Of a stretch of DNA of 64,000 bases, positions 38,856-47,347 are shown piece by piece; the first letter of the stretch is position 1, and every line of letters starts with the position of its first letter. The position numbers were made by a program, and so were the translations under genes. The DNA is from Parafrankia discariae (lineage in GTDB: Bacteria; Actinomycetota; Actinomycetes; Frankiales; Frankiaceae), in NCBI RefSeq assembly GCF_000373365.1, contig NZ_KB891209.1, positions 188-64,187 on the forward strand. The letters are read 5' to 3'. The notes below the pieces were generated by a model. It ran no database searches, was not told the origin of the DNA, and saw only the letters and a program-made list of their open reading frames with translations.

Positions 38856-39308
38856 TCAGCCCAGGCGGAGGCGGAGTTCCTCGAGGGCCTCGGCGATCTG
38901 TTCCGGGTCGACGCCCAGTGCGCGGCGGCTGAGTAGCACGGGCCCGTCGATGGTTTCGATCTCCAGGGTCCGCAGGTGGACGAGGCGCCGTCCGTGGGTG
39001 AGGGTTCCCGATCGCGCGCCGAGCACCGCGGCCCATGGCAGATGGCGCCGCCGCAGGCCCTCCACGTAGTCGATCCCGCCGAGACTGAGCCGCAGGGCCG
39101 GTCGGGACACCGCGTCGTTGATCGCGAGCGCCACCAGCCCCAGCCCGACCAGCCCGACCAGCAGCCGTCCCGCGCCGTCGAGGGAGGCGACCCGCCAGGC
39201 GAGATCCGCGACGGCGGCGACGGCGATCAGCGCCGCGCCGCCCGCGGCGTAGGCCACGCACCGCCAGATCGGCGGGGACCACGAGAGGTCGACCGGGGGC
39301 GTGCTCAC
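38856..39308 (-). CDS. PH-domain membrane protein (Rv0010c-like)
   Basis: A 150-residue protein with two N-terminal hydrophobic segments (about 12-31 and 40-60), then a bacterial PH-type beta domain (LSLGGIDYVEGLRRRHLPWA, then ARSGTLTHGRRLVHLRTLEI). This is the layout of mycobacterial Rv0010c, located between ppiA and crgA. The function is unknown. The GTG start at 39308 is only 5 bp from the stop of the upstream regulator on the same strand, which favours this start over a longer arginine-rich frame and suggests cotranscription. The gene is convergent with rhomboid. Confidence 0.75.
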   Translation of the reverse strand: MSTPPVDLSWSPPIWRCVAYAAGGAALIAVAAVADLAWRVASLDGAGRLLVGLVGLGLVALAINDAVSRPALRLSLGGIDYVEGLRRRHLPWAAVLGARSGTLTHGRRLVHLRTLEIETIDGPVLLSRRALGVDPEQIAEALEELRLRLG

Positions 39309-39313
39309 CCGCC

Positions 39314-42300
39314 TCACCCAACCACAGGCGGCGCGGGCGTCCCGGCGCACTGGTTCGCCAGCTGGGCGAGCGTCGTCAGGGCGAGGTCCACGACCTCCAG
39401 CCGGTTCAGCCGCGCGGCCTGCCCCCGGATCGCCGCGACCGCGTCCGCGCCGAGCCTGGCCCGCAGCTGCTCCACCAGGGCGTGGACCCGCTCGGCATCC
39501 GCTCCGACCACGGCGGGGGAGTCCAGGTCCGCGTCGGCGGCCGTGGAGAGCAGCAGCGCCTCGGCATCCTTCCCCAACTGGGCGAACAGGTCCGCCACGT
39601 TGCGCAGTGTGGTCCACTGCTGCGGCCAGCTACCGGTGCGCAGCCACAGCCGGATCACCTCCGGGTAGTGGGCGGTCGCCGTTGCCAGGTCACCTGTCCG
39701 CACCGCGGATGAGGCGAGGGTGACCAGCGAGATCCCGACCGCGAAGGGGACACCGCCGGTGCGGGCCGCGGCCAGGGCGCGCTCGGCGTGCCGGCGTGCC
39801 GCCACGGGATCGTCGTGGATGTGGATCTCGGCCTGGACGTACTCGACGAACGACCAGATGATCGGCCCGCCCGAGGTGCCGATGAGCTGACGTGCCCGCG
39901 TGACCAGCGTTTCCGCCCAGTCGGCATCGCCGCCGTAGGCCGCGGCCAGCGCCGCGACGGCCATCTCGTGGGCGGCCAGTTCGGAGTCGAGGGCGGCCGC
40001 CGTGACGAGGTGTTCGATCGACGAGGCGAACTCGCCGGCGAAGAGGTCGGTGACGCCCAGCGCGTAACGGGCGGTCGCCTCACCGGCGTCGTCCACAGCG
40101 GTGGCGAGGGCCCGGTCGGCCAGCTCGCGGGCCTTCCCGAGACTGCCGGCCCGCCAGGCGGCGTGGCTGGCCGCGGCGTACAGCAGCGGGGCCTCGGGCA
40201 GCCCGGCGAGGCCGGGAGCGTCTGCGGTCTCCAGCGCCCAGGCCCACAGCTCGGCGTTGTTGTGCCAGGCCGCGAACTCCCCGAGATCGATGCTTATCCG
40301 GGCCGCCCCGGCAAGGTCGCCCTGTTCCATCATCCGCTCGCGGCAGGCACGCAGCACGGGCAGCGCGGTCAGGATCCGCCGGCCCCAGCGCGGCCCGTCC
40401 GGGCCGTGCAGGCCGGCCGCCGCGGACCGGGTGAAGCCGTGGGCCCACGCCGCGATCAGGACCTGGGCGGTCTCGAGCTCCCCGGCGGCCCGCGCGGCCT
40501 CCAGGCCGAACGCGCGGATGCTGTCCAGCATGCGGAACGCCGTGCCGTCGTCAGGACGGGCCGGGTCGGCGACCGTCTCCACCATCGACGCGTCGACGAG
40601 CGTGCTGAGGGCGGCGATCGGATCCCGGGCCGGCTCGGAACCCTCACCGGACCTGGACCTGGACCTGGAGCCGGACAAGGCGGCGGCGATGAACTCCGCG
40701 ATCGAGAGGTCGAACAGGCCGGGAACGGCCGCCAGATGGCGGAAGAGGAGCTGCGCCCAGGGGTCGAGCAGCCGGTAGGACCAGGCGATCGTGCCGCGCA
40801 GGGTGTGATGCCGGTGGTCGTCGACGGGTGGTCGCCGGACTCGCCCGAGGTCGAGCCCGGCGTCCATGCGCGCGCGCAGGTCCGCCGGGCTCAGCGTCGT
40901 CAGTCGGCTCGCGGCGAGCTCGATGGCCAATGGCAGCCCGTCCAGGCGTCGGCAGATCGCCGCCGCGTCCCCGAGGGCCGCCGCGGGCAGGTCCCGGCCG
41001 CCCCGAGCCTGGCGCGCCCGGTCGAGGAACAGCCGGACGGCGGCGGCGTCTTCGGGAGCGGCGTCCGCGGCGGGCAGCGGCAGCGGCCCGAGGCGGAACA
41101 CCCACTCCCCGGACGTCCCCAGCGGAGCGCGGCTGGTGGCGAGCACCGTGAGGTTCGGCACCCAGCGGAGCAGCTCGCCCACCAGGTCGCGGACAGCGTC
41201 CAGGAGGTGCTCACAGTTGTCGATCACCAGTATCTGCCGGCGGGTCGCCAGGTAGTCGATGACCGCGCGGACCAGGTCTCCCTGTGTCGTGACCTCGAGG
41301 GCCTGAGCCAGCACGAACGGGAGGGTCGCTTCGTCCCGGACCGGCGCCAGCTCGACGAGGGTGGCCCCGTCCGGCCACCGCGGGGTGGCATGGTGCACCA
41401 CGTCCAGCATCAGCCGGGTCTTTCCCACGCCGCCGGGGCCGACGACGGTGACGCACCGGTCGGGGTGCAGCAGCTCCGCGAGCCGGTCCAGTTCCTCCGC
41501 GCGGCCCAGTAGCGGAGTGGGCGAGTGTGGGACGCGCGCCCTGGCCGCCTGGTCCCCACGGCCGTCCGGGCCGTCCGGCTGCCCTGACCACACCGTGCCC
41601 GCGGCGACAGCCGTGCCCGTGCCGCCCGGCCTGGCCGTGACCGGCGGCCCGGGCCTGACGGCGCGTGGCGTGGGGGCGGCGAGGTCGCCGCGGGCGACCG
41701 CGCGTTCGAGCTCGGCCAGCGCTGACGACGCCTCCAGACCCGTCTGGTCGGCGAGCCGGCGGCGGAAGTCACGGGCCGCGGCGAGGGCCTCGGGCGCCCG
41801 GCCGTCCAGGGCCAGCGCGCGGACCAGCAGCAGCAGCGCCGACTCGCGTAACAAGTCGGCGTTCGCGGCCTGCTCGGCGTCGCCGATTACCGCCGCCGCC
41901 GGGTCGCAGGCCAGCCGGGCGTCGAGCAGGCCGTCCACGAGGGTCTGCCGTAGCCGGGTGAGCCGGGCGGCCTCGGCACCGAGCGGGCCGACGGCACCGA
42001 ACTCCGCCAGGGCGTCACCCCGCCACAGGTCGAGGGCCTGCCGTAGCTGGTCGGCCGCGGCGGCGGGATCGGCCGGGCGCAGCGCGCGGGCCTTGGCGGC
42101 GAGCGTCTCGGCGCGGGCGGCGTCAAGCGCGCCCGCGCCCAGGACCAGGCGGTATCCGCCTCCGTCCCGGACCAGGCGGCCGGCCCGCGGCCCCAGATGG
42201 CCCCGGACTCGGGAGAGATGGCTGTGTAGCGTGCCGTCGGCCGAGGCGGGCGGGTCCGCGCCCCAGACGGCGTCGATCAGCGCGCCGGCTCCGACGACCC

Positions 42301-42433
42301 GCGTCCGCGACATCGCCAGCATGGCCAGCACCGCCCGCCGCCGCGCACCGGGGACGTCCACCTCGACGCCGTCGACTCGCAGCCGCAGCGGGCCGAGCAC
42401 GTCGACCTCCACACCCGCGTCCGGGTCGTCCAC
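39314..42433 (-). CDS. AfsR/SARP-like regulator with BTAD, NB-ARC and TPR parts
   Basis: About 1,039 residues. An OmpR-type DNA-binding domain (VDVLGPLRLRVDGVEV, then GTLHSHLSRVRGHLG) is followed by a BTAD helical domain, an NB-ARC ATPase (Walker A GPGGVGKTRLML near residue 335, Walker B RQILVIDNCEHLLDAV) and helical TPR-like repeats. This is the AfsR-type architecture that activates secondary metabolism or morphological genes. A run of Ser-Arg repeats is encoded by 6-bp repeats near 40656-40677. I prefer the GTG at 42433; the frame continues further but would overlap the divergent methyltransferase promoter. Its likely targets are the divergent genes. Confidence 0.85.
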   Translation of the reverse strand: MDDPDAGVEVDVLGPLRLRVDGVEVDVPGARRRAVLAMLAMSRTRVVGAGALIDAVWGADPPASADGTLHSHLSRVRGHLGPRAGRLVRDGGGYRLVLGAGALDAARAETLAAKARALRPADPAAAADQLRQALDLWRGDALAEFGAVGPLGAEAARLTRLRQTLVDGLLDARLACDPAAAVIGDAEQAANADLLRESALLLLVRALALDGRAPEALAAARDFRRRLADQTGLEASSALAELERAVARGDLAAPTPRAVRPGPPVTARPGGTGTAVAAGTVWSGQPDGPDGRGDQAARARVPHSPTPLLGRAEELDRLAELLHPDRCVTVVGPGGVGKTRLMLDVVHHATPRWPDGATLVELAPVRDEATLPFVLAQALEVTTQGDLVRAVIDYLATRRQILVIDNCEHLLDAVRDLVGELLRWVPNLTVLATSRAPLGTSGEWVFRLGPLPLPAADAAPEDAAAVRLFLDRARQARGGRDLPAAALGDAAAICRRLDGLPLAIELAASRLTTLSPADLRARMDAGLDLGRVRRPPVDDHRHHTLRGTIAWSYRLLDPWAQLLFRHLAAVPGLFDLSIAEFIAAALSGSRSRSRSGEGSEPARDPIAALSTLVDASMVETVADPARPDDGTAFRMLDSIRAFGLEAARAAGELETAQVLIAAWAHGFTRSAAAGLHGPDGPRWGRRILTALPVLRACRERMMEQGDLAGAARISIDLGEFAAWHNNAELWAWALETADAPGLAGLPEAPLLYAAASHAAWRAGSLGKARELADRALATAVDDAGEATARYALGVTDLFAGEFASSIEHLVTAAALDSELAAHEMAVAALAAAYGGDADWAETLVTRARQLIGTSGGPIIWSFVEYVQAEIHIHDDPVAARRHAERALAAARTGGVPFAVGISLVTLASSAVRTGDLATATAHYPEVIRLWLRTGSWPQQWTTLRNVADLFAQLGKDAEALLLSTAADADLDSPAVVGADAERVHALVEQLRARLGADAVAAIRGQAARLNRLEVVDLALTTLAQLANQCAGTPAPPVVG

Positions 42434-42665
42434 GCCGTCGCCCCCGAATCCCCTCGTCCTCCACCCACCGGGACGGCTGTGCGTCCGCCGTTCGACGGTG
42501 GTGCGCTCGCCGTTGGACGGCCGTGCGTCCGCTGGGAGCACGGCGCATCCCGCGTGCAGGTCCCATTCAAGTCGGTGACCGCAGTCTCGGAGGTGTTCAT
42601 CGCCGGGATCGTCCGGACGGGTGCCTGACACCTCGTCGGACATCCGACCCAACGAGGAGACAGCC

Positions 42666-43904
42666 ATGACGAGCACGACCCACGGGACGACGGCCCACAG
42701 GACGAGCGAGGAGGCGGCGCCCGGGACCACCGCCGAGGCCGCCCCCGGGACGGTCGGCGCGGCGGCCGCCGCGGCGGGTCCGTCCGCGGGCCTGGATCTC
42801 GCGGAGGTCGAGCGGTTCGCGTACAAGATCGCGCAGGACCAGGCGATCGCCACCGTGGGTGCGCTGGGCTGGCTCGGCGACCGGCTCGGGCTGTGGGCCT
42901 GTCTCGCGGCCGCGGGCCCGGTCACCAGCACGGAGCTCGCGGCGGCGACCGGCCTGGCCGAGCGGTACCTGCGCGAGTGGCTCGCGTCCCAGTTCGCCGC
43001 GGGCAACCTGCGCCATGACCCGGCGAGCGGGCGGTTCCACCTGCCCGCGGAATGGGCCGCGGTGCTCGCGGACCCGGACTCGCCGGTGGCCTCGGCCGGC
43101 GGCTACGAGTCGCTCATGGGCTTCTACGCGGCCGCGGACCGGCTGGTCGAGGCGTTCCGCACCGGCGGCGGCATCGGCTGGGGGACCCACGATCCGCGGC
43201 TCTACAGCGGTGTCGACCGGTTCTTCGCCCCGCTCTACCGCGCCAGCCTGGTGCGCGAGTGGCTGCCCGCGCTGGGCGGGGTCGTCGAGCGGCTGCGCGC
43301 CGGCGCGAAGGTCCTCGACGTGGGCTGCGGCCACGGCACCTCGACGTTGCTCATGGCGGAGGCGTTCCCGGCGTCCACCTTCCACGGCGTCGACCCGCAC
43401 CCCGAGTCGATCAACGCCGCGCGGACGGCCGCCAACCGCGCCGGGGTGGCTGACTGGACGACGTTCTCGGTCGCCCCGGTGACGGGCGGCATCGGCGACG
43501 GGTACGACCTGATCTGCTTCTTCGACTCCTTCCACCACGTCCGGGACGCGGTGGCGGCCGCGGTGGCCTGCCGCCGGGCGATGGCGCCGGGCGGCACGCT
43601 GATGCTGGTCGAGCCGCGCGCGGGGGACAGCGTGCAGGAGAACACCGACGTCGTCGGGTTGAGCTTCTACGCCGCCTCCACCCTGGTGTGCCTGCCGGAC
43701 GCGCTGTCCCAGCACGACCACGACCGTGACGGCGACGGTGACCACGGCGCCGACATCCTCGCCGGTGAGCGCGGCGCCCGGGACGCGCTCGGCGGCATGG
43801 CCGGGCCGGCTCGGCTGGGTGAGGTCCTGACGGCGGCGGGGTTCGGTTCGGTCCGGGTGGCCGCCGAGACGATGGTGAACATCGTCGTCGAGGCCCGACA
43901 GTGA
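42666..43904 (+). CDS. SAM-dependent methyltransferase with winged-helix N-terminus
   Basis: A 412-residue protein. Residues 50-150 form a winged-helix dimerisation domain (GPVTSTELAAATGLAERYL, then WLASQFAAGNLRHD), followed by a class I methyltransferase fold with SAM motif VLDVGCGHGTSTLLMAEAF near 215-233 and GVDPHPESI. This architecture is shared with mycobacterial Rv2258c-type proteins. The C-terminal insertion contains HDHDRDGDGDH, an unusual acidic/histidine run. The ATG follows ACGAGGAGA. It overlaps the next gene by 4 nt (GTGA) and is divergent from the SARP-like regulator, which is its likely activator. The methyl acceptor is unknown. Confidence 0.85.
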   Translation: MTSTTHGTTAHRTSEEAAPGTTAEAAPGTVGAAAAAAGPSAGLDLAEVERFAYKIAQDQAIATVGALGWLGDRLGLWACLAAAGPVTSTELAAATGLAERYLREWLASQFAAGNLRHDPASGRFHLPAEWAAVLADPDSPVASAGGYESLMGFYAAADRLVEAFRTGGGIGWGTHDPRLYSGVDRFFAPLYRASLVREWLPALGGVVERLRAGAKVLDVGCGHGTSTLLMAEAFPASTFHGVDPHPESINAARTAANRAGVADWTTFSVAPVTGGIGDGYDLICFFDSFHHVRDAVAAAVACRRAMAPGGTLMLVEPRAGDSVQENTDVVGLSFYAASTLVCLPDALSQHDHDRDGDGDHGADILAGERGARDALGGMAGPARLGEVLTAAGFGSVRVAAETMVNIVVEARQ

Positions 43905-44788
43905 CTCCCGGGCCGGCCGCCGGGCCGCCCACGACGGAGGTCGCCGCCGCTGTCGATCCCGAGGCGGCGGCGGTGGTTCGGCGCCTTCTCACCGCGGGCC
44001 GTGCCGCGGCGGGAGGCCCGGCGGCGGCCCTGTCCCTCGGACCGCTGCTCGGCGTCTGGGCGCACCCGGACGACGAGACCTACCTGTCCGGGGCGCTGAT
44101 GGCCACCGCCGCGCAGCTCGGTGCCCGGGTCGTCTGCGTCACCGCCACCTGCGGAGAGCTGGGTGGCCCGGTCCCGCCCGGCTCGCCGCCGGGGCTGACT
44201 CCGGGGCGGCTGCGGGTGGCCGAGCTGACCGAGGCGCTGGACGTTCTCGGGGTGAGCGAGCAGGTTCTGCTCGGCCTCCCCGACGGTGGCTGCGCCCGGC
44301 TCGCCCCGTCCGCCCCGTCGGTCCCGTCGGGTGCGGCCGACGTCGCCGGCCCGGTGGAGCGGATCGAGGGTGTCATCCGCGAGCTCCGACCGGCGGTCGT
44401 GGTGACGTTCGGGCCGGACGGGTTCACCGGCCACCCGGACCACCGCGCCGTTTCGGCCTGGACCACCACCGCGTTCAGACGGGCGGCCCCCGACGGCGCC
44501 CGCCTGCTGTACGCGGCCGCGTCCACCGACCACCGCGAGCGGACGAGGGACGTCGACGAGCTCCTCGATGTCGCCATGGACGGCGCGGACCTCGACGGCG
44601 TCGACGGCCCGGTCGTCGCGCCCGGCGCGCTCGCGGTCCGGTTGAACCTGACCGGACGGCTGCTGGAACGCAAGGTCGCCGCGCTGCGGGCGCACGCCTC
44701 GCAGACCACGGGCGCGTTGGCGGTGCTGGGTCCGCGGCGGTTCGCCGGCTGGGTCGCGGAGGAGGCGTTCGTCGATCACCGCGGCTGA
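43901..44788 (+). CDS. PIG-L (LmbE/MshB-like) deacetylase
   Basis: A 295-residue zinc hydrolase. The family motif AHPDDETYLSGALM lies near residues 51-64 and the second metal motif GHPDHRAVSAW follows near 173, so the metal-binding site is complete. PIG-L enzymes deacetylate N-acetylglucosamine-linked substrates, for example MshB (mycothiol) and LmbE-type proteins; others cleave thiol conjugates (Mca). The GTG start overlaps the methyltransferase stop, so the pair is translationally coupled and may modify one compound. The substrate is not determined. A GH15 enzyme follows 183 bp downstream. Confidence 0.88.
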   Translation: MTPGPAAGPPTTEVAAAVDPEAAAVVRRLLTAGRAAAGGPAAALSLGPLLGVWAHPDDETYLSGALMATAAQLGARVVCVTATCGELGGPVPPGSPPGLTPGRLRVAELTEALDVLGVSEQVLLGLPDGGCARLAPSAPSVPSGAADVAGPVERIEGVIRELRPAVVVTFGPDGFTGHPDHRAVSAWTTTAFRRAAPDGARLLYAAASTDHRERTRDVDELLDVAMDGADLDGVDGPVVAPGALAVRLNLTGRLLERKVAALRAHASQTTGALAVLGPRRFAGWVAEEAFVDHRG

Positions 44789-44871
44789 GGGACACCGTGG
44801 CTGTCACCTCGGCGACTCTCCGGCAGGGGAGCTTGCGTACCACGAGGTGGCAGCTACCATTCGCGTTCTTG

Positions 44872-44885
44872 ACTTTACTGAAAGT
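44872..44885. promoter_or_regulatory. Inverted repeat upstream of the GH15 gene
   Basis: ACTTT-ACTG-AAAGT at 44872-44885, overlapping a TTGACT (44869-44874), in an AT-rich patch 87 bp before the GH15 start. Candidate operator/promoter. Confidence 0.45.
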
Positions 44886-44971
44886 AGCGACGCGGTGGCC
44901 CTGATCCGATGCGATGAGGGCGCCGGTCGCGCGCGAGGGCGCCGCGTGGGCGGCGTGGGTGAGGGGGAGCG

Positions 44972-46882
44972 GTGGCGCACGCACCGACGCGGCGGGGCGG
45001 GGGAAGCCCGTTCCCGCCGATCGCCGAGTACGGGTTCCTCTCCGACTGCGAGACGAACTGCCTGGTGGCCCCGAGCGGCAACGTCGAGTGGATGTGCGTG
45101 CCGCGCCCGGACGCGCCGAGTGTGTTCGGTGCCGTGCTCGACCGCTCGGCCGGCGGCTTCCGCTTCGGCCCGGACCGGACCTTCATCCCGGCCGGCCGGC
45201 GGTACCTGCCCGGCACGAACGTCCTGGAGACGACCTGGCAGACGCCCACGGGGTGGCTGATCGTCACCGACTGCCTGGTCGTCGGCCGCTGGCACCGGAC
45301 GCACCGGCGGTCCAACACACATCGGCGCACCCCGGGTGACTGGGACGCCGACCACGTGCTGTTGCGGCTGGCCCGCTGCGAGCACGGCGACGTCGACCTC
45401 AGCCTCGTCTGCGAGCCGAACTTCGACTACGGCCGCAGCCCGGCGTCCTGGAAGTACGAGGGTGCCGACTACTCGACCGGGATCATCACCCACGAGTCCT
45501 CGGACGGCGACCCGGCGGCGGGCGTCGCGCTGCGGCTGCGCACCGATCTGCGGCTCGGGTTCGACGGCCGGCGCGCGCTGGCCCGGACGACGCTGCGGGA
45601 AGGCGACACCGCGTTCGTCGCGATGACCTGGCGGGCCGAGGACCCGCTGCTGCCCGGCGACTACGCGAGGGCCTGCGCCGCCGTGGACAGCACCACCGAG
45701 TTCTGGCGGCAGTGGCTTTCGCGTGGGCGGTTCCCCGACCACCCGTGGCGCCGGCATCTGCAGCGCAGCGCACTGGCGCTCAAGGGTCTCACCTACGCCC
45801 CGACCGGGGCCCTGCTCGCCGCCGCGACCACCTCACTGCCGGAGACACCGCAGGGCGAGCGCAACTGGGACTACCGCTACAGCTGGATCCGGGACTCGAC
45901 GTTCGCCCTGTGGGGCCTCTACACCCTGGGGCTCGACTACGAGGCGAACGACTTCTTCTCCTTCATCGCGGACGTCGCCGAGCACGCCGACGACATCCAG
46001 GTGATGTACCGGGTCGGTGGCGAGCCGAAGATCGACGAGGAGATTCTCGGGCATCTGTCCGGCTACGACGGGGCCGTCCCGGTGCGGGTCGGCAACGAGG
46101 CGGCGCAGCAGCGTCAGCATGACGTGTGGGGGGCCATCCTCGACTCGGTCTACCTGCACACCCGGTCGCGGGACTATCTCTCGGAGCGGCTGTGGCCGGT
46201 GCTGGTCCGGCTGGTGGAGGCGGCGGCCGCGCACTGGCGGGAGCCCGACCGCGGCATGTGGGAGGTCCGGGGCGAGCCGCGGCACTTCACGTCGTCGAAG
46301 ATGTTCTGCTGGGTCGCGCTGGACCGGGGGCGCCGCCTCGCGCAGATGCGCGGTGACCTGCGCACCGCGGGCCGCTGGGACGACATCGCCGACGAGATCC
46401 ACGCGGACGTCCTGGCGAACGGTGTCGACCACCGCGGTGTCTTCACCCAGTACTACGGCTCGACGGCGCTGGACGCCTCGGTGCTGCTGATGCCGCTGCT
46501 GGGTTTCCTGCCCTCGACGGACGACCGGGTGAAGGCGACCGTGCTCGCCATCGCCGACGAGCTGACGGTGGACGGCCTGGTGCTGCGCTACCGGACGGAG
46601 GAGACCGACGACGGTGTCGAGGGCGAGGAGGGTGCCTTCCTCATCTGTTCGTTCTGGCTCGTCTCCGCGCTGGTGGAGATCGGTGAGCTGACCCGGGCCC
46701 GGCAGCTGTGCGAGCGGCTGCTGAGCCTGGCCAGCCCGCTGGACCTCTACGCCGAGGAGATCGATCCGGCGGACGGGCGGCACCTGGGTAACTTCCCGCA
46801 GGCCTTCACCCACCTGGCACTGATCAACGCGGTGATGTACGTGATCCGGGCCGAGGACGGGGAGTCCTACGCCCGTTCGTGA
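44972..46882 (+). CDS. Glycoside hydrolase family 15 protein
   Basis: A 636-residue protein with the GH15 layout: an N-terminal beta domain (FPPIAEYGFLSDCETNCLVA, then GNVEWMCVPRPDAPSVFG) and a catalytic (alpha/alpha)6 barrel. The barrel carries NWDYRYSWIRDSTFALWGL near residues 298-316 and YAEEIDPADGRHLGNFPQAF near 592-611, the two regions that hold the acid/base residues. Bacterial GH15 members act as glucoamylases or trehalases; trehalase is common in actinomycetes, but I cannot tell which applies. There is no signal peptide. The GTG start follows GGGGGAGC. It is probably part of the module controlled by the AfsR-like regulator. Confidence 0.9.
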   Translation: MAHAPTRRGGGSPFPPIAEYGFLSDCETNCLVAPSGNVEWMCVPRPDAPSVFGAVLDRSAGGFRFGPDRTFIPAGRRYLPGTNVLETTWQTPTGWLIVTDCLVVGRWHRTHRRSNTHRRTPGDWDADHVLLRLARCEHGDVDLSLVCEPNFDYGRSPASWKYEGADYSTGIITHESSDGDPAAGVALRLRTDLRLGFDGRRALARTTLREGDTAFVAMTWRAEDPLLPGDYARACAAVDSTTEFWRQWLSRGRFPDHPWRRHLQRSALALKGLTYAPTGALLAAATTSLPETPQGERNWDYRYSWIRDSTFALWGLYTLGLDYEANDFFSFIADVAEHADDIQVMYRVGGEPKIDEEILGHLSGYDGAVPVRVGNEAAQQRQHDVWGAILDSVYLHTRSRDYLSERLWPVLVRLVEAAAAHWREPDRGMWEVRGEPRHFTSSKMFCWVALDRGRRLAQMRGDLRTAGRWDDIADEIHADVLANGVDHRGVFTQYYGSTALDASVLLMPLLGFLPSTDDRVKATVLAIADELTVDGLVLRYRTEETDDGVEGEEGAFLICSFWLVSALVEIGELTRARQLCERLLSLASPLDLYAEEIDPADGRHLGNFPQAFTHLALINAVMYVIRAEDGESYARS

Positions 46883-47080: not shown

Positions 47081-47347
47081 TCAGCGCCACTGAGTGGACA
47101 CGGCGAGGCCCACGACGACAAAACCGAAGCCGATCAGGATGTTCCAGCCGCCCAGACTTTCCATCCCCAGCACGCCGCCGTTGGAGAAGTAGTAGACGAG
47201 CAGGTAGGCGATGCCGATCAGGAAGAACGCCAGGATCAGGCCGCCGAACCACGGCGGTGACGGCGGCCTGCGCTTCGGCGCGCGTGTGCTGGTCTGCGGG
47301 GCCGCCACCGTGGTCTTCTTCGGCTTCCGGCGTCGGGATTCGGGCAC
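47081..47347 (-). CDS. crgA: Cell division protein CrgA
   Basis: An 88-residue protein: basic N-terminus, then two TM segments (WFGGLILAFFLIGIAYLLVY and WNILIGFGFVVVGLAVS) separated by the short loop FSNGGVLGM. This matches CrgA, which in mycobacteria and Streptomyces interacts with FtsZ, FtsI and other divisome proteins and affects septation. The GTG start follows GAGGAGC. It sits left of trpG and the pknAB cluster, as in other actinomycetes. The order is conserved, but here the ppiA side is separated by an accessory module. Confidence 0.93.
   Translation of the reverse strand: MPESRRRKPKKTTVAAPQTSTRAPKRRPPSPPWFGGLILAFFLIGIAYLLVYYFSNGGVLGMESLGGWNILIGFGFVVVGLAVSTQWR

Follow-up and report, generated by a model that had tools for sequence, protein, structure and literature searches.

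SARP regulators act at targets in which repeats spaced by 11 or 22 bp adjoin the -10 element (PMC10936776), and the operators of the PimR/SARP-LAL group consist of three heptamers separated by 4-nt spacers, with a 3-nt variant also known (PMC5930380). AfsR of Streptomyces coelicolor, a large SARP (8hvr, 8jke, 8k60), joins SARP, NTPase and TPR regions in one protein and acts at promoters whose 11-bp direct repeats adjoin a weak -10. The locus described here encodes a regulator of the same architecture facing similar predicted promoters but, unlike AfsR, this regulator has two enzyme genes as linked neighbours and seems to act locally, not globally. The enzymes also have described relatives. The deacetylase shares its PIG-L family and the AHPDD/HPDH metal-site motifs with MshB and Mca (mycothiol deacetylase and conjugate amidase), and the methyltransferase (MT) has the two-domain architecture of TnmJ and of the Rv2258c-like methyltransferase 5f8c.

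The locus lies in the window, by which we mean the whole stretch of 64,000 nucleotides analysed, from a genome that groups with Parafrankia soli and P. colletiae (MT identity 87% and 81%, respectively). The mycobacterial gene block runs ppiA-PH-crgA-DUF881-trpG-pknB, and its order is kept in the window. Relative to that block a rhomboid gene (between ppiA and PH) and a GH15 gene are additional throughout the Frankiaceae, and the regulator-MT-PIG-L trio is additional in some Parafrankia only; the window order is ppiA-rhomboid-PH-(regulator/MT-PIGL)-GH15-crgA-DUF881-trpG-pknB-pknA. The genes and borders are as follows.

38856..39308, minus strand: PH-domain gene (bPH_6), left border of the insertion and outside the trio; adjoins GH15 in empty-site species
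39314..42433, minus strand: large-SARP (AfsR-like) regulator with Trans_reg_C, BTAD, AAA/STAND NTPase and TPR regions (Pfam)
42666..43904, plus strand: SAM methyltransferase (MT) with an N-terminal Rv2258c-like winged-helix domain, HTH_65 (Pfam; nearest solved structures)
43901..44788, plus strand: PIG-L family deacetylase (Pfam PF02585; AHPDD and HPDH motifs)
44789..44971, plus strand: GH15 upstream block, right border of the insertion and outside the trio (comparison with empty-site genomes G018, G020 and G021)
44972..46882, plus strand: GH15 glycosidase/trehalase-like gene, ancestral resident outside the trio; in almost every Frankiaceae genome located upstream of crgA
47081-47347, minus strand: crgA, the neighbour 3' of GH15

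The four genes that the initial annotation had placed here (regulator, MT, PIG-L and GH15) are all present at its coordinates and intact, with a 4-nt overlap (GTGA) between the MT stop and the PIG-L start, and the 5-bp gap it reported between regulator and PH gene is correct (PH start GTG at 39308, regulator stop at 39314-39316). It had also read the four as a 7.6-kb insertion between PH and crgA, and had proposed comparing gene order at crgA across relatives. We retrieved the corresponding locus from 25 further genomes of the Frankiaceae and mapped the window proteins onto each; 24 of the 25 loci were informative, L076 ending before the site. Of the 24, 22 carry GH15 upstream of crgA, and in the other two (L089 and L091, genera g4 and g5) it was not found at the locus. 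The trio occupies the site in three of six Parafrankia species (the window, P. soli G019 and P. colletiae G017) and mapped to no other Frankiaceae locus. In three species of the same genus (G018, G020, G021) the site is empty and PH adjoins GH15, the two being about 210 bp apart in G018 and G020 and <300 bp in G021. Directly after the PIG-L stop the window carries a block, GCTTGCG...TACCATTCGCGTTCTT...TTTACT-AAAGT, which is likewise found ahead of GH15 in the species whose site is empty; the insertion therefore extends from the start of PH as far as this block. Because GH15 retains this conserved block it has a separate control region, and because it stands upstream of crgA in so many genomes with the block in place it is ancestral; on this comparison GH15 has long occupied the site and is unrelated to the trio. 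The accessory insertion is thus real, but only 39314-44788 is accessory, and the gene-order comparison supports an insertion without supporting a quartet, GH15 being kept where the trio is missing.

The GH15 product has a TREH_N domain and matches the GH15 Pfam model; against TreH1, the GH15 trehalase (NF041084), it reaches 352 bits, below the cut-off of 820. The insertion lacks the signature of a mobile element: in the window no transposase gene separates PH from GH15, and no repeats of at least 8 bp are common to the two borders. Base composition gave no usable indication of transfer (GC of the trio 75.5-77.5%, within the 66.7-77.8% of the neighbours). P. soli has an IS605 OrfB gene between regulator and PH, a local and probably more recent event.

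The three accessory proteins can be assigned to families, though not to the best-known members of these. The regulator fits the definition of a large SARP (Trans_reg_C, BTAD, and NTPase and TPR regions, all above gathering cut-offs), and AfsR orthology was rejected, the score of 114 bits lying below the equivalog cut-off of 1430 (NF053617). The MT scores as an Rv2258c-like methyltransferase (HTH_65, 57.6 bits against a cut-off of 24.1; Methyltransf_12, 61.5 bits), and its nearest solved structures are TnmJ (8g5s; phmmer E 3e-44) and 5f8c (E 1e-39). It retains the glycine motif as VLDVGCGHG, whereas in TnmJ this is altered to VAHVGSGGG, and TnmJ belongs to an enediyne (tiancimycin) cluster whereas the MT sits in an orphan trio. 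The AHPDD and HPDH motifs of the PIG-L protein align with MshB and are invariant in the three species, but identity as MshB (94.3 bits against 224.35; TIGR03445) or Mca (68.7 bits against 277.15; TIGR03446) was rejected, and a true MshB is encoded elsewhere in the genome (C107:216845, 357 bits). The enzymes are of small-molecule-modifying types, as first proposed. Predicted structure models (AlphaFold; pLDDT 54 and 36) were too poor for a fold search.

The linkage of regulator and divergent enzyme pair noted in the initial annotation recurs outside the Frankiaceae. Among 197 genomes of g44, a genus of the actinobacterial family f26, a PIG-L homologue (E<=1e-25) was found in 12, and nine of these hold all three genes, in an order that differs from the window: the MT is divergent from PIGL-regulator. 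A proteasomal ATPase gene (ARC/Mpa) adjoins the trio in the five loci where it is visible (L129, L133, L215, L216, L217); in L129 the trio is flanked on its other side by Dop and a proteasome subunit. Partial sets also occur, with the regulator divergent from an MT in L094 and L095 and next to a PIG-L gene in L172, and AfsR-like genes that neighbour an MT or PIG-L gene in other genomes share 40-47% local identity with the window regulator. A class-level sample of 394 genomes has MT in 81 overall and in 18 of the 26 with PIG-L (Fisher p=3e-8, with no correction for relatedness); the two lie within 5 kb in 5 of the 18 genomes with both, where <1% per genome is expected. The majority of PIG-L homologues, and likewise of MT homologues, are unlinked in other genomes. 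Family f19 has a different, UbiE/ArsM-like methyltransferase following the same type of PIG-L gene, with a shared promoter layout in 3/3 cases. That the trio is a genuine unit, housed in differing housekeeping blocks across bacteria, is well supported by these comparisons.

The promoters of these loci share an architecture rather than a motif. All nine g44 trios have GTGACAG-N4-GTGACAG-N10-xAnnnT, a classical SARP layout, upstream of PIG-L; it was defined on L129, L133 and others when seven of the nine g44 loci were unseen, and the g44 loci are mutually related. Since the pattern stops 6-7 nt 5' of the PIG-L ATG, it suggests leaderless PIG-L transcripts. The f19 promoters repeat the layout with CCTTGAC heptamers (3/3). 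A universal GTGACAG motif upstream of every MT homologue was rejected: most held-out homologues were negative with one fixed matrix, which fails to generalise because the heptamers vary by lineage (GTGACAG in g44, GTGCA/ATTCAAG-like in Parafrankia and CCTTGAC in f19, versus CGGCAAG for PimR). Given these lineage-specific heptamers, we used lag-based tests in place of a fixed matrix. In each of three upstream-region sets a lag of 11 ranked first or tied for first among repeat lags (z=6.3, 4.0, 2.5), and in a grid of lag and gap, lag 11 with a gap of 9-10 was found in 15 of 24 sequences and other lags in at most 2, the set including previously seen sequences.

In the window, the divergent region 42434-42665, singled out earlier as the candidate target of the regulator, does contain SARP-type repeats:

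42472..42537, plus strand: three 22-bp direct repeats (two helical turns), a possible distal SARP operator (lag-22 self-similarity)
42543..42587, plus strand: predicted SARP box and -10 of the MT promoter, GCGCATC-N4-GTGCAGG-N4-ATTCAAG-N10-CAGTCT (block kept in three species; layout as in the g44 PIG-L promoters)

Set against the SARP rule of repeats 11 or 22 bp apart upstream of a -10, the region has significant 22-bp repeats (lag-22 self-similarity, p=0.002 in the window and p=0.001 in P. soli; 1000 dinucleotide shuffles) and a degenerate 11-bp box (lag-11 p=0.37 in the window by itself). The box fails a strict heptamer test, and a GTGACAG matrix found nothing in the window (p=0.46). What argues for the predicted 11-bp box is its conservation in three species together with the 22-bp repeats. 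P. colletiae has a variant of it with a 3-nt spacer, as among PimR/SARP-LAL operators; those operators also share the arrangement of three heptamers with 4-nt spacers, whereas the putative target here is an enzyme operon. A pattern built from the window's own box has one match in the 7.9-Mb genome (control 0), and a single site is consistent with a dedicated regulator.

The history of the trio is less simple than its distribution. A tree of GH15, trpG and crgA makes the trio carriers paraphyletic to G018, G020 and G021 (support 0.94-0.98), leaving their monophyly within Parafrankia unsupported; with six species, our reading is a gain on the Parafrankia stem plus one loss, though rooting noise is possible. 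In the protein trees, Parafrankia PIG-L groups with g44 (0.999) and Parafrankia MT with family f17 and g44 (0.967), separate from other Frankiaceae MTs; these groupings point to a source that was probably outside the family. Transfer by plasmid found no support (one plasmid PIG-L match at 41%), and plasmid homologues of the MT, mostly on rhizobial plasmids, have an identity of <=48%.

We propose that 39314-44788 is a portable, self-regulated three-gene tailoring cassette in which the SARP activates the MT-PIG-L operon, whose products carry out deacetylation followed by methylation, and give this reading a probability of about 0.72. It starts from direct observations (which genes are present, that the trio recurs, that some sites are empty, and how the repeats are arranged), and its linkage and promoter logic are well supported; for binding and activation, the order of the enzymes, the type of substrate and the trigger we infer the following. 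The large-SARP regulator would bind the 11/22-bp-spaced repeats in 42472-42571 and recruit RNA polymerase to the weak -10, switching on the translationally coupled operon. The PIG-L enzyme would then strip an N-acetyl group from an amino-sugar-like or mycothiol-like substrate, and the MT would methylate the deacetylated product, probably on the amine thus exposed or on a hydroxyl close by. The occurrence of two unrelated methyltransferases with one type of deacetylase, seen in the f19 pairing, favours such a two-step tailoring of one molecule, acetyl off and then methyl on, and points to deacetylation that may be coupled to methylation. The compact modification unit of the initial annotation therefore survives as the regulator-MT-PIG-L trio, and the glucan enzyme drops out of the functional picture.

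A possible but clearly less probable explanation is that the trio, detached from a larger natural-product pathway encoded elsewhere in the genome, finishes the molecule which that pathway makes, with the SARP as its pathway-specific activator. SARPs are typical pathway activators (PMC10936776) and the nearest solved relative of the MT comes from the tiancimycin cluster, but no core biosynthetic genes are present among the identified neighbours in the window or at the proteasome locus of g44, the compactness of the trio in two families suggests self-sufficiency, and the box pattern matches nowhere else in the genome, a second site with those heptamers not being seen. We consider it unlikely that the trio is a detoxification or self-protection unit, in which the NTPase/TPR half would sense a stressor that a Mca/MshB-like amidase and the MT inactivate. 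The relationship of PIG-L to Mca and MshB would fit, as would the appearance of the heterocyclic-toxin methyltransferase Rv0560c, at a weak E-value, in the PDB list for the MT; against this, neither an exporter nor a stress gene is linked in the examined loci, the tests for membership of Mca and MshB fail, and SARPs normally activate biosynthesis. Far less probable, and contradicted by the comparative evidence, is a four-gene carbohydrate unit acting on a glucan or trehalose-linked metabolite, the adjacency of MT, PIG-L and GH15 on one strand notwithstanding: GH15 occupies this position also in Frankiaceae that lack the trio, has its own upstream block right after the PIG-L stop, and is absent from the wide g44 loci L129 and L133. 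Chance juxtaposition of three unrelated accessory genes, each from a family common in actinobacteria, can be dismissed given the independent arrangement of the same three genes in nine g44 genomes and the excess of enzyme pairs within 5 kb.

Beyond the portable tailoring cassette itself, we offer a broader idea as speculation: the trio may be a self-contained actinobacterial system for acetyl-to-methyl exchange on a conserved metabolite or signal, with the STAND-type SARP as sensor, placed repeatedly in housekeeping loci (the division block, the proteasome locus). On that tentative reading, one function might be served by two unrelated methyltransferase families under a shared promoter layout.

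The components belong to known families, and the combination appears to be undescribed in the literature searched; we found no description of the SARP-MT-PIG-L trio in open-access literature. What had been a loose impression of four genes becomes a defined unit with a predicted, testable operator, and the g44 promoters provide a clean and unusually regular natural set of putative large-SARP target sites, comprising heptamer, spacer, -10 and near-leaderless start. The repeated pairing of a PIG-L deacetylase with a methyltransferase points to an uncharacterised deacetylate-then-methylate tailoring step.

The Rv2258c-like SAM methyltransferase encoded beside the window's large-SARP (AfsR-like) regulator has stand-alone homologues, 51–52% identical, at three loci in family f17 (L126, L127 and L128), where two to three GTGACAG-like heptamers at the 11-bp spacing of SARP promoters lie upstream of the gene. 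No AfsR-like gene was detected in the fetched flanks (about 7 kb) of these homologues, which are probably SARP targets in trans. A second, diverged AfsR-like/methyltransferase divergent pair occurs at another locus in each of P. soli and P. colletiae (L097, L098). Homologues of the window's methyltransferase are also frequent on plasmids of Rhizobium/Sinorhizobium, where the identity is about 47%.

In family f19, a homologue of the PIG-L deacetylase is followed by a UbiE/ArsM-like methyltransferase (L173, L175, L176). Here, a SARP-like promoter with CCTTGAC heptamers at 11-bp spacing precedes the pair, near which no AfsR-like gene was detected at the three loci.

The upstream block of the glycosidase gene GH15 contains the following feature:

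44872–44885, inverted repeat ACTTTACTGAAAGT, immediately 3' of the conserved TACCATTC element

The repeat is retained, with one-base changes in some, by the Parafrankia relatives lacking the regulator–methyltransferase–deacetylase trio, and looks like an operator for some GH15 regulator.

Whereas 5 bp separate the regulator from the PH-domain gene in the window, an IS605 OrfB/TnpB-type gene is lodged between them in P. soli (L066:14309-15520). In genus g7, the PH-domain gene had no match in the rhomboid–GH15 slot (L073:9285-10505 and the equivalent stretch at other g7 loci), and in L073 a different S-adenosyl methyltransferase (Methyltransf_19, PF04672) occupies its place; thus the rhomboid–GH15 interval is variable across the family.
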